NCBI GenBank assembly: GCA_031272035.1
Contig: JAISUO010000003.1
Coordinates: 1-52,859, forward strand
DNA from: Synergistaceae bacterium
GTDB taxonomy: Bacteria; Synergistota; Synergistia; Synergistales; Aminobacteriaceae
Direction of reading: 5' to 3'
DNA length: 52,859 bases
How positions within the stretch are numbered: position 1 is the stretch's first letter; every line of letters begins with the position of its first letter. The notes under the pieces were generated by a model, which was not told the DNA's origin, searched no databases, and saw nothing but the letters and a program-made list of their open reading frames with translations. Below, piece by piece: positions 46,217 through 52,859 of the stretch. The position numbers were made by a program, and so were the translations under genes.

Positions 46217-47413
46217 ATGATAAAAGCACTGACAGCGCACACCGGCGAAATCGACAACACAGAGGCCGCACTGGCGGAAATCATGGAGCAGCTGGACCTG
46301 AAAAACAACCTGCTGAAAAATTCCATCGGATTGATCACCTGCTATTCCGAATTTATCGATACGGGGATCGTGAAGGCTCTAACCTCCGCCCTCCCCTTCG
46401 AGACGGTGGGAACCACCACCCTGGGGAACCTGGTGCCGGGCTCTCTGGACACGCTCTCTCTGACGATCATGGTGCTGACCAGCGACGACGTATCCTTCTC
46501 CGTTGGGCTCACGGACTCCATCACCTCGGACTCCCCTGAGGACGAGGCCCTTTGCGCGGCGGCTTACGAAAAAGCGGCGGCCAAACTTCCGGACTTCCCG
46601 GAGAAAAAACCCCTTCTTATCCTGAGCTTTGCCCCGCTGCTCATGAACGTCAGCGGGGATTTCTACGTGACCGCCTTCGACAGGGTTTCCGGCGGCATCC
46701 CCAGTTTCGGCCCCGTGGCGGTGGACCACACCTCGGACTACCACACGGCGCAGATCCTCTGCAACGGGGAAAGCTACGCCGATCGCTGCGCTTTCGTTCT
46801 TTTGTCCGGCGAAGTCGTTCCTCATTTTTTCATCGCTTCCATCTCGTCGGATAAATTCTTTCAGGACAAAGGTCTGGTGACCGACGCCCAGGGCTGTCTC
46901 CTGAAAACGGTGAACGACGTTCCCGTCGTGGACTACCTGAAAAGCCTCGGCCTTCCCCAAAATGAGGACGGAACCCTCAGCGCCATCAACATCTTCCCCT
47001 TCGTCGTCGACTACAACGACGGAACCCGACCGGTGGTTCGGGCGATCTTCGCTCTGACGCCGGAGGGCTGCGTGGTCTGCGGCGGCAACATCCCCACAGG
47101 GACAACCCTGTACGTCAGCGCCTTCGATTCCGCGGAGGTTCTTTCCACCACCGAAGAGGCCCTCCGTCAGGCCCTCGCTCAGAGAAAATTCGACTGCATG
47201 ATCCTTTATTCCTGCGTGGGGCGTTATTTCGCCATGGACTACAATCCCCTGGGAGAAATGGAAAGCGTCCAGAAACTGATTCCCGAGGGGCTTCCGTACC
47301 AGTTCACCTACTCCGGAGGCGAGCTCTGCCCCGTCCACGCTCAGGGAACACAATCTCTGACCAACAGAAACCACAACGACAGCCTGATTATTTGCGCCCT
47401 TTCGTCGAAATAA
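46217..47413 (+). CDS. FIST domain sensor protein (second copy)
   Basis: This 398-residue soluble protein is a paralogue of the FIST protein at 23059-24228. It shares the same leader helix (DNTEAALAEIMEQLDLK), CYSEFIDTGIVKALTSALPFETVGTTT, LTSDDVSF, GGIPSFGPVAVD, DGTRPVVRAIFALTPEG and the C-terminal YSGGELCPV. Both FIST_N (~35-230) and FIST_C (~235-398) are complete. GAGGAGAG precedes the ATG. It lies 85 bases after the GH57 gene and 23 bases before a hybrid kinase gene, again a FIST-kinase pair. The ligand is unknown; the neighbours here are glycogen genes rather than an amino acid transporter. Confidence 0.85.
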   Translation: MIKALTAHTGEIDNTEAALAEIMEQLDLKNNLLKNSIGLITCYSEFIDTGIVKALTSALPFETVGTTTLGNLVPGSLDTLSLTIMVLTSDDVSFSVGLTDSITSDSPEDEALCAAAYEKAAAKLPDFPEKKPLLILSFAPLLMNVSGDFYVTAFDRVSGGIPSFGPVAVDHTSDYHTAQILCNGESYADRCAFVLLSGEVVPHFFIASISSDKFFQDKGLVTDAQGCLLKTVNDVPVVDYLKSLGLPQNEDGTLSAINIFPFVVDYNDGTRPVVRAIFALTPEGCVVCGGNIPTGTTLYVSAFDSAEVLSTTEEALRQALAQRKFDCMILYSCVGRYFAMDYNPLGEMESVQKLIPEGLPYQFTYSGGELCPVHAQGTQSLTNRNHNDSLIICALSSK

Positions 47414-47436
47414 AATCCGGAAAAGGACTGCAGGAA

Positions 47437-49215
47437 ATGACATCGCCCGATGAAGATTTCGAAGCCTTAAGGCTGGAAAACAGACAACTCTACATGGAAA
47501 ACAGAAAGCTGCTCCGCGAACTGGAGTCCGAGCGCGCTCTGAACCGGAGAAACCGGATAAACGCGGAGGCCAGAGCCAATCTGACCCAGATCATTTCAGC
47601 CGAAAAATCCCGCCTGGAACGCTACATGAACCTGCTTCTGGCCAACTGTCCCGATGTTATCCTGCTGTTCGACCAGGAAAAACGTCTCATCTTCGCCAGC
47701 GAGTCCTACCTGCGGCTTCGGGAACTGCCCGCTTTTGGCCTGATTCGGGGAAAGACCAGCGAAGAACTCCTGTCGCCTCTCTTTACGGAAGAAAGCTGGC
47801 CCCATATCGACGCTCTGTTCAAAACGGCCGTGGAAGGACAAAACTCCGGCGCCCCTCAGGAGTTTACCGAAAAAATCGATTTTGGAAAAAAAGGAGACTT
47901 TCGTTATTACATCATCAGCGTAACCCCCATGCTGGAGGGCGGAAAAACGGAGGGGATCATGGCGCTTTTCTGCGACACCACCGAAATCATCCTGGCGAAG
48001 GACGAGGCGGAACGGGCCCGAGCCATCGCGGAGCAGTCCACACGGGCAAAATCGGACTTTCTCGCGAACATGAGCCACGAGATGCGCACTCCGATGAACG
48101 CCATCATCGGCATGACCACCATAGCCCAGTCTTCCGAAAGTCCTGAAAAAAAGGACTACTGCCTGAATAAAATCGAAGAAGCCTCCAGTCACCTGCTGGG
48201 AGTCATCAACGACGTTCTGGACATGTCGAAAATCGAGGCGGGCAAGTTCGACCTCTCCCCCGCGGAGTTCAGCTTCGAGAAACTGCTTCAGAAGGTGACC
48301 GGCGTCATGAACTTCCGCATCGATGAAAAACGGCAGAAGTTCACCCTGAGCGTCGACGAAAAGCTTCCGGATACGCTGATTGGGGACGACCAGAGGATCG
48401 CGCAGGTGATAACGAACCTGCTCTCCAACGCCACCAAGTTCACGCCTGAAGGAGGTTCCATACATCTGGACGCGCAGCTTCTGGAGGAGAGAGACGAAAC
48501 CTGCCTCCTGCAGATTGCGGTATCCGACACGGGGATCGGCATCAGCGAAGAGCAGCAGAACCGGCTTTTCACCTCCTTTCAGCAGGCCGACACCAGCACC
48601 TCCCGAAAATTCGGCGGCACGGGGCTCGGACTGGCCATATCGAAGCGCATCGTCGAGATGATGGGCGGCAGAATCTGGATCTCGTCTCAGCCGGGCAAAG
48701 GGGCCACCTTCACCTTCACGGTGGAGGTCAAAAACGGAGAGAAGAAACGCGATTCACCCCTGCAGCCTCGCGCCAAAAATTTCGAAACGACTCCGCCTGG
48801 GGAAAAACCGGACGAAAAGAGAGATTCTTTCGAAGGTTTCCGTATTCTCCTGGTGGAAGATGTGGAAATCAATCGGGAGATCGTCCTGTCGCTTCTGGAG
48901 CCGACTTTGCTGACGATCGACTGCGCGGAGAACGGTGTGGAGGCGGTTGAGCTTTTCAAAGAGAACCCGGACCGGTACGACATGATCTTCATGGACGTGC
49001 AAATGCCTCAAATGGACGGCTACGAAGCCACGCGACGCATTCGCGCTCTCGACGTTCCCGCCGCAGGGCGAATCCCCATCGTGGCCATGACGGCCAACGT
49101 TTTTCGGGAAGACGTGGAAAAATGTCTGGCGGCAGGAATGGACAGCCACATGGGCAAACCCGTCGACTTCAATGAAATGTTGAACAAACTGCGCCAGTAC
49201 CTCCCCCACAGGTGA
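47437..49215 (+). CDS. Cytosolic hybrid histidine kinase with one receiver domain (FIST-linked, second copy)
   Basis: The 592-residue protein has no membrane segment. Domain order: coiled coil (~5-65), PAS (~60-183), HisKA with H214 in ANMSHEMRTPMN, HATPase with N box (~318-334) and GGTGLGLAIS (393-402), a charged linker (~432-465) and one receiver (E474/D475, phosphorylated D520, GKP near the end). It is clearly paralogous to the 20747-22975 kinase, most strongly in the kinase core and the last receiver, but lacks the first receiver. ATG at 47437 is chosen because GGA lies nine bases upstream and it gives a 23-base gap from the FIST stop; an in-frame ATG at 47392 overlaps the FIST gene. No DNA-binding output is present. 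Confidence 0.92.
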   Translation: MTSPDEDFEALRLENRQLYMENRKLLRELESERALNRRNRINAEARANLTQIISAEKSRLERYMNLLLANCPDVILLFDQEKRLIFASESYLRLRELPAFGLIRGKTSEELLSPLFTEESWPHIDALFKTAVEGQNSGAPQEFTEKIDFGKKGDFRYYIISVTPMLEGGKTEGIMALFCDTTEIILAKDEAERARAIAEQSTRAKSDFLANMSHEMRTPMNAIIGMTTIAQSSESPEKKDYCLNKIEEASSHLLGVINDVLDMSKIEAGKFDLSPAEFSFEKLLQKVTGVMNFRIDEKRQKFTLSVDEKLPDTLIGDDQRIAQVITNLLSNATKFTPEGGSIHLDAQLLEERDETCLLQIAVSDTGIGISEEQQNRLFTSFQQADTSTSRKFGGTGLGLAISKRIVEMMGGRIWISSQPGKGATFTFTVEVKNGEKKRDSPLQPRAKNFETTPPGEKPDEKRDSFEGFRILLVEDVEINREIVLSLLEPTLLTIDCAENGVEAVELFKENPDRYDMIFMDVQMPQMDGYEATRRIRALDVPAAGRIPIVAMTANVFREDVEKCLAAGMDSHMGKPVDFNEMLNKLRQYLPHR

Positions 49216-49379: not shown

Positions 49380-50066
49380 CTACTTCATCATCTTTACCCG
49401 GGCGTTGCGGTCTTTGATCTGGCGGAGGAGCGTCAGGCAGATGGACGGGACCTCCTCCAACCCGTCGTCCCTGGAGACGGCCTGCTCCAGCCGGATCACG
49501 CCCTCTTTGACGGCGTCGTCGCAGGGTTGCAAACTCGCGTGGCTCATGGGGTCGCTGTAGCGCAGGGCATCGATCACCGGCTGGATGTTCCCGGCCATGC
49601 CGGGCGCTTTATCCAGAGCGGCCGCCACGTCCGCCCGCAGGGACGCCAGCTCCCAGGTTTTCCCACGCACTTCGCTCCCCTGTTGCCCTATGGCATCCCT
49701 GACGCCCTTCAGGAGAATCAGCCGGATCGCGAAAAATGCCCATATGAGCGCGTGCCCGATGAAGAACCAGACCGGCGGCAGCCGGAAAATTCCCAGCTGC
49801 TCCAGCAGGACGAACACGGCGGAAAACGCGAGCTCGATCGTCAGGTATTGCCCCGCTGCCGTCGGAATCGCCGCCGCCCAGGGATAAGTTTTCAGATTGT
49901 CCAAAAGGTACACGCCGCTCCACCAGAAGCCCGCGAGGCCCAACAGGGCGAACCCGTAAGCGGTCAGGTACAGCGGGGTGATTTCTCTCAGAACCAGAAA
50001 AGGCAGACTCAGGACCGCCGCGAGAACCAGCGCGATCAGGGTGATTCGTGTTTTATGACCGTTCAT
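49380..50066 (-). CDS. Four-helix membrane protein, last gene of the TIR-SPFH unit
   Basis: The 228-residue protein has four hydrophobic segments in its first ~125 residues (about 8-25, 30-50, 70-90, 95-120) and a soluble, mostly helical C-terminal half with acidic and Leu-rich segments. I recognise no family. AAGGAG precedes the ATG at 50066; an in-frame ATG at 50093 would overlap the SPFH gene and lacks a ribosome binding site. It begins 13 bases after the SPFH stop, so it is probably co-transcribed with the SPFH and TIR genes and may be their membrane partner (inference). Confidence 0.75.
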   Translation of the reverse strand: MNGHKTRITLIALVLAAVLSLPFLVLREITPLYLTAYGFALLGLAGFWWSGVYLLDNLKTYPWAAAIPTAAGQYLTIELAFSAVFVLLEQLGIFRLPPVWFFIGHALIWAFFAIRLILLKGVRDAIGQQGSEVRGKTWELASLRADVAAALDKAPGMAGNIQPVIDALRYSDPMSHASLQPCDDAVKEGVIRLEQAVSRDDGLEEVPSICLTLLRQIKDRNARVKMMK

Positions 50067-50079
50067 TTCACAATCTCCT

Positions 50080-51210
50080 TTATTCGGCGTCACTCTGGCT
50101 CATCTTATGTCCGCATTCAAGGCAGAACTTGCCCTTCGGCGTCTTCGCGCCGCAGACGGGGCAGATGGTTTCCTCCCGCGTCTGCGGCGCTGGCTGAGAG
50201 GGCGCGGCTTGGGAAGGCGCAGCCTCCGGCGTCCGCAGGACGTTTTGCATCATGCCGCCCACAGACGCGCCTACGGCCCCGCCCACGCCGGTCACCATTC
50301 CCAGGCCGACGCCCAGGTTGCTCATCTGTCCCACGGCCTGGTTGGACGCCACCTTCTCCGCAACGTCGAAGCCCCGCTCGTCCTGATAGCTGTACCCTTC
50401 CAGGGCGCGTTTCTGAGCGATGGCCTGAGCCTCGATCACAAGGCGTCGGGCCTGTGTCTCCTGTTCTATGACTCCCACCTGCTGGCGCAGCTTCGCCTCC
50501 GTCACGTCCGCGTACTGGCGGAAGTGCAGCTCCCTGAATTTTTGATACGCCCTGTCCTCCTCCGGCCTGACGAACCCGGCTATGAAAAACTTCTCCAGCT
50601 TCACTCCGTAGTCCAGAAAATCAGCCCCCAGTTCCTCGTGGAGCGTCTCGGACATTTGGGTCATGTGCCCGTCGATTTCGAAGATGCTGATTTTTTCGGC
50701 CTTGATGACCTGGACCAGGCGCGTCTTGATTCTGGCGTTCAGGAACATCCGGAACTTCCCCGTCAGCATGTCCCGCGTCAGGGTTTTCTCCGTGCCCACC
50801 ACCTTGACCAGCAGCTTGCGGGAGTCCTCCACGGACAGGCTCATCTCGCCCCGGGCCCCGATTTGAATCGGGAAGCCGTATGTGGGCTCCACGTACTCCA
50901 CTCTGGAGTCCGTGCCCCATTTGATCTCCATCTGCTCCGTCCTGTTGACGAAGTACACCTCGCAGTGAAACGGCGTCTGGTCCCCCGTGGGGCGGTTGAA
51001 ATACTTATCCACGAGCGGCAGGTTCTGGGTTTCCAGGGTGTAGCGGCCGGGGCCGAACAGGTCCAGGGCCTGCCCGTTCATGAAGAAGACCGCCTCCTGG
51101 CTTTCGTGGACGATGAGCTGTGCGCCGGTGTTGAAGTCCTCGATCGGGTGTTTCCAGACGAAGGTCGTGTCGTCCCCCTCGTATTTGATGACGTCGGCTA
51201 ATTTATCCAA
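50080..51210 (-). CDS. SPFH/Band-7-like protein with C-terminal zinc ribbon
   Basis: The 376-residue protein contains an SPFH-type domain (~20-230; 'virion core protein'-like branch), then a coiled-coil helix rich in Ala, Glu and Gln (~230-275), a Gly-rich segment (~290-315), a Pro/Gln linker and a zinc ribbon CPVCG...CLECG (C350, C353, C363, C366). No clear N-terminal membrane segment is present, so membrane association would be peripheral. SPFH proteins form oligomeric scaffolds. The gene begins 15 bases after the TIR gene stop; GGAGGAG precedes the ATG. The tight linkage implies a joint role in one response. Confidence 0.85.
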   Translation of the reverse strand: MDKLADVIKYEGDDTTFVWKHPIEDFNTGAQLIVHESQEAVFFMNGQALDLFGPGRYTLETQNLPLVDKYFNRPTGDQTPFHCEVYFVNRTEQMEIKWGTDSRVEYVEPTYGFPIQIGARGEMSLSVEDSRKLLVKVVGTEKTLTRDMLTGKFRMFLNARIKTRLVQVIKAEKISIFEIDGHMTQMSETLHEELGADFLDYGVKLEKFFIAGFVRPEEDRAYQKFRELHFRQYADVTEAKLRQQVGVIEQETQARRLVIEAQAIAQKRALEGYSYQDERGFDVAEKVASNQAVGQMSNLGVGLGMVTGVGGAVGASVGGMMQNVLRTPEAAPSQAAPSQPAPQTREETICPVCGAKTPKGKFCLECGHKMSQSDAE

Positions 51211-51225
51211 TTGAACTCCTCCTGC

Positions 51226-52859
51226 TCACTCAATATCGTCCTGTTTCATCTGTTCTTCCGGTTTCGAGTCAGTTCCCGATTTTTTACTCGGGACAAAAAA
51301 TATGTTGATCAAAGCGATAGACCAACTAAAAATAAGAGCGCCAACAGCCCAGGCAGGGTAACCCACGAACCGTAAGATAAAAAAGAAGATCGGGCCAAGA
51401 ATCAACCAAACACATATCCCATATTTGTGCAGTCTTTTTGCATCCAGTTGTTTTAATTCTGTTATAACGGAAGACATATATTCTTCGTACTCTTTCTGAA
51501 GACCGATCTCAGTTTTCCTGTCCATCTGTTCCAATTGAAGTCTGTATTCTTCGATCTTTTCGCGTATTTCCCTCGGATAAGCAGCGTAGATTGTTTTATT
51601 GGATTCATCGGCGAAGCGCAGAGCCCTCTGGTAATTCGGATCCGCGTCCGGGAAGTCGAAATCCTTCATCGCCTCATTAAAGCCCCACATCATGGGAATG
51701 TAACTATTGTCGAAATATATTAATTTCCATTTCTCTTGTTCAGTTAGTGTAGTGCTCTTCTGTAATGCTTTAACGTCTGCCTGGCTCGCCTCATCCAGCG
51801 TCAGGGAAACGATTTTACAGGCGCTGTCTGGCGCTTGCTCCAGCAAAAACGTGACTTTCTCCATGAAGCGTACCCACTCGTCTGTGACGATGTCGTACTG
51901 GCACTGATGCTTCGCCTGGTATTTCCCCATGTAGGCCGCCGCGCATTGGGGGTCGATGTCCAGCACGCGCTCGAAATAATTATCGGCCCTCGCGAATTCG
52001 CCGTCTTCGAGAAAAATATAAGCGCGCTCCAGCAGAGGCTTGACGTCCGGTCTGGCCGCTGTCGCCGCCGCTTGAGGCGCGGTCTCCGGCTGAGATTTAT
52101 CCGCGCTCAAAACCTTCTGTATACCTCGGATCAGGTCCTGCACGAAACCGATTTTGCTCATGTCCTGGGCTTGGAGGTGAGACAGCTCATCGGGCAGGTC
52201 ATACGGGTCCATGTCCTGATAGCAGGGGATGAGCAGGCGGCTCCTGTCCTTTTTCATCAGGGCCAGATAACGGCTCCACTCGTTCTTCACCCATACGGCG
52301 CTGAAGCGCGCCGGGCTGGTTCCGATCACGATCATCACACGGGCGCTGTTGAGAGCGCTGAAGATATACGGTTCATACTCGCTCCCCAGCTTGTCCTCAA
52401 GGGTGATGCGGGAGAAAAAGACCTTGTACCCGGCCTGCGTGAGCCGGTAATAAACGTCCTGGGCGATGACGCTGTCTTTCGTGCGGTCTCCGTTGTCCTC
52501 GGCTTCCTTGTAACAGATGAACACGTCGAAGGGCTCTTCTTTCCGCGAGATGGCGAGGATGCCCTTCTGAATTTCGGAGATGGTTTTCGCCTCCTCCTCG
52601 TAGAGGCTCCGGCTGTAGCCGTCGGGGGCGTGCTCCAGCGCCGCAAGGCAGTCCGGGTGGTCGAGGATGGATTCATATTGGACTCTGTGGCAGGTGGGGA
52701 CGCGCCTGTGGGTCGCAGGGTCCTCCACGTACTCGATGCCAAAGCGGCATAACACAGCGCCCCAATGGGCCTCGGCGTTGGAGTTGTCCTCGTCGAGGAT
52801 GCTTTCGTAGGCCGCCAGGGCCCTGTCGAACTCGTTCTGCCTGCGGAAATGGTTGGCGC
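51226..52859 (-). CDS. TIR domain protein with TPR-like region and C-terminal membrane hairpin (5' partial)
   Basis: The frame is open to the window edge, so the N-terminus is missing; about 543 residues are visible. The first ~100 are helical with NEFDRALAAYESIL, a tetratricopeptide-like motif, and VLCRFGIEYVEDP. A TIR domain follows: FDVFICYKEAEDNGDRT, RITLEDKLGSEYEPYIF and SAVWVKNEWSRYLAL, whose Glu sits at the position of the catalytic Glu of TIR NADases. Another TPR-like stretch, a coiled coil and two adjacent hydrophobic segments with a polar tail end the protein. TIR proteins of this layout are known mainly from Clostridia-type anaerobes. The C-terminal third is more AT-rich than the neighbouring genes, a hint of transfer. 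The SPFH gene starts 15 bases downstream. Confidence 0.88.
   Translation of the reverse strand, partial: ANHFRRQNEFDRALAAYESILDEDNSNAEAHWGAVLCRFGIEYVEDPATHRRVPTCHRVQYESILDHPDCLAALEHAPDGYSRSLYEEEAKTISEIQKGILAISRKEEPFDVFICYKEAEDNGDRTKDSVIAQDVYYRLTQAGYKVFFSRITLEDKLGSEYEPYIFSALNSARVMIVIGTSPARFSAVWVKNEWSRYLALMKKDRSRLLIPCYQDMDPYDLPDELSHLQAQDMSKIGFVQDLIRGIQKVLSADKSQPETAPQAAATAARPDVKPLLERAYIFLEDGEFARADNYFERVLDIDPQCAAAYMGKYQAKHQCQYDIVTDEWVRFMEKVTFLLEQAPDSACKIVSLTLDEASQADVKALQKSTTLTEQEKWKLIYFDNSYIPMMWGFNEAMKDFDFPDADPNYQRALRFADESNKTIYAAYPREIREKIEEYRLQLEQMDRKTEIGLQKEYEEYMSSVITELKQLDAKRLHKYGICVWLILGPIFFFILRFVGYPAWAVGALIFSWSIALINIFFVPSKKSGTDSKPEEQMKQDDIE

Follow-up and report, generated by a model that had tools for sequence, protein, structure and literature searches.

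What might a TIR protein, an SPFH protein and a membrane protein be doing side by side in a Synergistaceae bacterium? The window analyzed here (contig JAISUO010000003.1 of assembly GCA_031272035.1; 52,859 nucleotides) is a single whole contig of the source genome (G000:C3), and so does not include the start of the TIR gene. Open reading frame calls and Pfam annotation place three genes on the minus strand at its right end, in the order TIR, SPFH, membrane protein. The TIR gene (51226..52857) is seen over 543 codons, its 5' end being cut by the contig end; it is separated by exactly 15 bases from the SPFH gene (50080..51210, 376 aa, Band_7_1), which precedes the membrane protein gene (49380..50066, 228 aa). 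A first-pass annotation of this sequence had described a TIR protein with TPR-like parts and a C-terminal hairpin, an SPFH protein with a zinc ribbon, a four-helix membrane protein, and the 15-base gap, all of which we confirm from the sequence. In our view there is an even chance that these genes form a horizontally spread immune unit, in which a platform of SPFH and four-helix membrane proteins clusters TIR NADases with interchangeable sensor ends.

Is the association specific to this genome? We analyzed 78 loci in which the SPFH gene could be read, that of the window and 77 more. Since they were gathered via the SPFH protein alone, the neighboring genes count as an independent observation. 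The membrane protein gene lies directly downstream of the SPFH gene in 73 of these loci, and a true TIR-domain gene is present in the same-strand run of the SPFH gene in 60, with more than one TIR gene in 20. Another 10 loci pair the SPFH protein with a zinc-ribbon protein lacking TIR. The position of the TIR gene varies: it is directly before the SPFH gene in 19 loci and directly after the membrane protein gene in 31. According to the organism titles, the loci span Bacillota, Mycoplasmatota ("Tenericutes"), Lentisphaerota, and Synergistota. As they are mutually related, these counts are not independent events, and the stronger argument is that the loci occur in clades far apart in the tree. 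Hence, the trio recurs, and the possibility that the three genes are linked only in this genome can be rejected. Two loci (L094 and L105) have an SPFH-membrane pair followed by four tandem TIR proteins that differ in length and ends.

Is the TIR protein an enzyme? Its TIR domain (aa 107-250; 52108..52539, minus strand, like all features below) matches TIR_2 (PF13676) with 46.7 bits against a curated cut-off of 28 (E-value of 5e-12) and the family profile with an E-value of 2e-84; the AlphaFold2 model has a predicted local distance difference test score (pLDDT) above 90 over most of the domain. The codon of Glu193 (52279..52281), within the motif WVKNEW, is at the position of the catalytic Glu of TIR NADases in the homolog alignment. 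The plausible NADase Glu proposed in the first pass thus holds well: a Glu is found at this position in 98 of the 98 homologs, and it aligns with that of the flax L6/L7 TIR (WCLMEL). We infer that the TIR proteins of the unit have NADase activity, judging from these sequence comparisons. The TIR could instead be a non-enzymatic assembly domain that forms a signaling scaffold with the SPFH protein, the effector lying in the variable ends or elsewhere. This would fit the conserved residues, which are spread across the entire domain and not confined to the active site, and the 10 loci where the SPFH protein is paired with zinc-ribbon proteins devoid of TIR. Yet Trp189 and Glu193 are both invariant among homologs, and the best solved structural matches of the model (SARM1, L7, TIR-STING, and SPARTA) include active NADases, so that we regard a purely structural role as quite unlikely.

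Around the TIR domain, homologs show a constant order: zinc ribbon and TPR, TIR, TPR, and a variable C-terminus. The window's protein has an N-terminal TPR-like repeat (TPR_16, best stretch aa 1-37; 52747..52857) and a second TPR after the TIR domain (TPR_2, E-value of 9e-7, aa 275-304; 51946..52035). Homologous TIR proteins begin about 47 residues earlier, with the zinc ribbon. While the core aligns in 3916 of the 3916 pairs of TIR proteins, the C-terminus does so in 518 of them. Pfam searches on 82 of these C-termini identified RCC1 (18), DUF6273 (18), LRR (3), ankyrin (3), and FGE (1), as well as TPRs. DUF6273 has a C-type-lectin-like fold; in phage targets of diversity-generating retroelements, it is a hypermutated recognition domain with hypervariable regions (PMC10743442, PMC11792537). 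The changeable C-termini single out RCC1, DUF6273, and LRR as candidate recognition domains. Membrane hairpins are also present among the variable ends, and the window's protein carries one (aa 476-519; 51301..51432; hydrophobic stretches at aa 476-494 and 501-519). The low GC at the end of the TIR gene, previously taken as a hint of transfer, is indeed observed: 45% in the C-terminal part, against 59% in the core of the gene and 61% in the SPFH and membrane protein genes. As the drop is confined to this part, it marks the C-terminal module and not the whole unit.

What might the two other proteins provide? The SPFH domain (50557..51138) matches Band_7_1 (PF13421) with 149 bits against a curated cut-off of 24 (E-value of 2e-43). 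The protein has no strong membrane segment and ends in a zinc ribbon (aa 346-370; 50101..50175), where the CxxC...CxxC pattern is visible in the sequence (CPVCGAKTPKGKFCLECG) although the Pfam score (Zn_ribbon_3, 0.0057) is under the cut-off. The reading frame of the membrane protein (49380-50093) is open up to a GTG at 50093, and comparison with homologs points to the ATG at 50066 as the actual start (MTNHKTHITL...). Its AlphaFold2 model (pLDDT of 95) has a helical bundle at the C-terminus, preceded by four long N-terminal helices, three of which are also picked up by a simple hydropathy scan. The protein matches no Pfam family, and Foldseek found no significant structural relative of the model. 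A constant membrane protein in nearly every locus would fit a Thoeris-like logic, where the TIR makes a signal (a form of cyclic ADP-ribose) acting on a partner, possibly on a channel formed by the membrane protein. ADP-ribose signals can be products of TIR domains of this fold class (general knowledge; PMC13174449). On the other hand, Pfam recognizes no ligand-binding domain (SLOG, Macro) in the window's three proteins, and the membrane protein also occurs without TIR. We consider such a signaling role very unlikely.

The scheme that we favor, that of a clustered TIR immune unit, would work as follows. The SPFH protein would be a membrane-associated oligomer, anchored by the four-helix protein, onto which the TIR protein would dock, perhaps via its zinc ribbon and TPRs, and, in the source genome, additionally by its own membrane hairpin. 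The variable C-terminus of the TIR protein would detect an intruder or its effects. Upon detection, TIR domains would be gathered on the scaffold, and the assembled TIRs would cleave NAD, whose loss would lead to growth arrest or cell death before the phage spreads. The oligomeric platform, the docking of TIR, and the sensing by the C-terminus are all inferred, as is phage defence by the unit. TIR NADases require oligomerization or clustering for activity (PMC13174449), and SPFH proteins build vault-like membrane assemblies (PMC13347060), which suggests that the SPFH protein is a natural clustering device. In this arrangement, the variable TIR C-termini look like sensors and the SPFH and membrane proteins like their platform, so that the label of membrane-sensing system, proposed as a possibility in the first-pass annotation, is not established. 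The bacterial role of the SPFH family is still debated, and the unit could offer these proteins a testable one. Being common in gut Bacillota, it might also extend the known immune sensors by a widespread, membrane-bound class.

How did the unit reach this genome? Searches with a profile of the TIR core identified full cores in 8 of the 83 genomes of the family. Five copies are beside an SPFH gene (in the source genome, twice in G006, in G017, and in G022) and three have none in the stretch read (G006:C23, G081, and G088); two cores are at contig ends. The SPFH proteins of the Synergistaceae units form one clade (support of 97) nested among Clostridia, Lentisphaerota, and Verrucomicrobiota within a largely clostridial clade, and the TIR-less SPFH proteins of Synergistota branch apart from them in the same tree, which was built with a quick method and in which the program flagged long branches. 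The unit is thus patchy in the family and, by these sequence comparisons, has been transferred between lineages. No match to the TIR protein emerged from the collections of phage and plasmid records searched. Related elements occur on mobile or potentially mobile DNA. The 20-kb plasmid pNP21 of Butyrivibrio fibrisolvens (L131, 6700-10053) has an SPFH gene 56% identical to that of the window; with it are a membrane-protein gene that is either a remnant or mis-started and a zinc-ribbon/TPR protein that lacks TIR. On an IMG/VR contig (L130, 1-8322), genes for an SPFH protein and a membrane protein, a further small gene, and the gene of a TIR protein whose end resembles DUF6273 follow lysin-like and resolvase-like genes; this set is possibly prophage cargo. 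The source genome itself carries a second, TIR-less SPFH-membrane pair outside the window, on contig C84 (G000:C84:31077-32011; L038, 2999-6887); the SPFH reading frame of this pair is split, and next comes a gene for a clostripain-like protease.

The profile search also located a 34-codon start with a zinc ribbon that runs off the end of another contig of the source genome, C1. This fragment is compatible with the N-terminus that the window's TIR protein lacks, leaving about a dozen codons unread, and suggests that contigs C1 and C3 adjoin at the TIR gene. On C1, a tRNA-Lys/tRNA-Glu pair precedes the putative start by 282 bp, with tRNA-Glu the nearer of the two; islands are common in such places. 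Three relatives are similar up to the end of the tRNA-Glu gene and no further; in two of them the contig ends at the tRNA or about 330 bp after it, and in the third the tRNA is near the contig start. No att-like direct repeat was found when the tRNA side was compared with the far flank.

Do the neighbors point to defence? Candidate defence genes adjoin 3 of the 4 other Synergistaceae units, a plain count made with no matched control set. The first set of neighbors consists of HEC-01A (E-value of 3e-126) and HEC-01B (8e-72); at L033 (4971-6772), DUF4276 (HEC-01B model) and AAA_21 (HEC-01A model) genes lie directly after the unit's membrane gene. The second is a Mokosh-like MkoA helicase (6e-105); the opposite side of that unit is occupied by an integrase-family gene. 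The third is a helicase of the ResIII type, which scored against models of PbeA and of type IV restriction. The expectation of defence-island neighbors is thus only partly borne out: among 117 neighbor proteins of the wider locus set, the listed Pfam families are mostly housekeeping. Two genes of the window (46217-49215) run convergently to the unit, one for a FIST-like protein and one for a hybrid histidine kinase. Relatives have multiple copies of FIST-like genes, several of them with adjoining kinases.

The unit could also be an envelope-stress or membrane-repair module akin to PspA-YdjGHI of Bacillus subtilis, where the SPFH and membrane proteins would stabilize or mark damaged membrane and the TIR would be a stress signal or a tuned consumer of NAD, not a phage defence effector. 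Its SPFH protein resembles YdjI in lacking a strong membrane segment, in its C-terminal zinc ribbon, and in the adjacent membrane-protein genes (PMC8581546, PMC11237479), and the recruitment of YdjI requires separate membrane proteins (PMC8581546). TIR-less SPFH-membrane pairs are widespread, and in one host, Synergistales MS502-76 (L034, 1790-4595), PspA-like, zinc-ribbon, and YdjI-like SPFH genes are found about 2.6 kb upstream of the unit. Yet the patchy, transferred distribution, the tandem TIR copies, and the highly variable C-termini are unlike housekeeping repair, and no PspA-like gene adjoins the unit in the window. A repair module therefore seems improbable to us. We discarded the CesT/Tir named in the PSP paper, as it denotes a family of chaperones and not the TIR domain.

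Several observations weigh against a clustered TIR immune unit. SPFH-membrane pairs without TIR are common in the family (their SPFH proteins being roughly 33-43% identical), and TIR cores without SPFH in the stretch read (G006:C23, G081, and G088) show that the linkage is not obligatory. Outside the Synergistaceae, the neighbors are mostly housekeeping genes. Finally, the W-x3-E motif and an invariant Glu are also present in TIR domains not known as enzymes.

Does the unit correspond to a known system? PADLOC and NCBIfam models assigned it to no known defence system. The Thoeris TIR models are not matched (ThcB4 scores 14.3 bits for a cut-off of 220, and no Thoeris model is in the PADLOC results), and Pfam identified no Thoeris-type partner (ThsA SIR2/SLOG or other signal receiver) in the window's two partner genes, the wider loci not having been searched for one. 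Unlike SPARTA, the window's unit has neither an APAZ region nor an Argonaute gene; TIR-containing Argonaute-associated models match weakly and over the TIR stretch only (E-value of 2e-4). CBASS TIR-SAVED systems would require a SAVED domain and a CD-NTase gene, neither of which was found in the window's unit. Relative to PspA-YdjGHI, the unit has a TIR protein instead of PspA, no PspA, YdjG, or YdjH alongside, and a membrane protein unrelated by Pfam, while the YdjI-like SPFH proteins form a separate, distant branch in the tree. SARM1 and plant L6/L7 share with it the TIR fold and the position of the catalytic Glu, and partner domains drive their clustering; the unit lacks ARM/SAM or NB-LRR and has instead a zinc ribbon and TPRs around the TIR, and an SPFH partner. 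The ternary or STAND-type TIR conflict systems likewise pair effector and regulator parts that stay constant with domains that change, some of these systems using FGS domains (PMC7159879), but no STAND, MoxR, or GTPase part was recognized in the window's three genes.

The DUF4062 TIR-like NADases Swarozyc and TEP1 resemble the unit in their TIR-class fold, auxiliary domains, and patchy bacterial spread (PMC13174449), and TEP1 resides in the vault, a particle with an SPFH-like shoulder (PMC13174449, PMC13347060). One could imagine a bacterial "membrane vault", an SPFH cage on the membrane that would hold or gate TIR NADases, as an immune counterpart of vault/TEP1 with cassette-swapped sensor ends, an idea that we find doubtful. 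The unit's proteins do not match DUF4062 and no SPFH gene is mentioned for Swarozyc, so the parallel is a suggestive analogy and we claim no homology between the systems. Our literature search, which covered open-access papers but neither subscription journals nor most preprints, turned up no description of a TIR-SPFH unit, and the unit seems undescribed so far. In the systems compared, TIR domains are clustered via an ATPase, a second messenger, a guide complex, or the invader, whereas here the device is likely an SPFH membrane scaffold.
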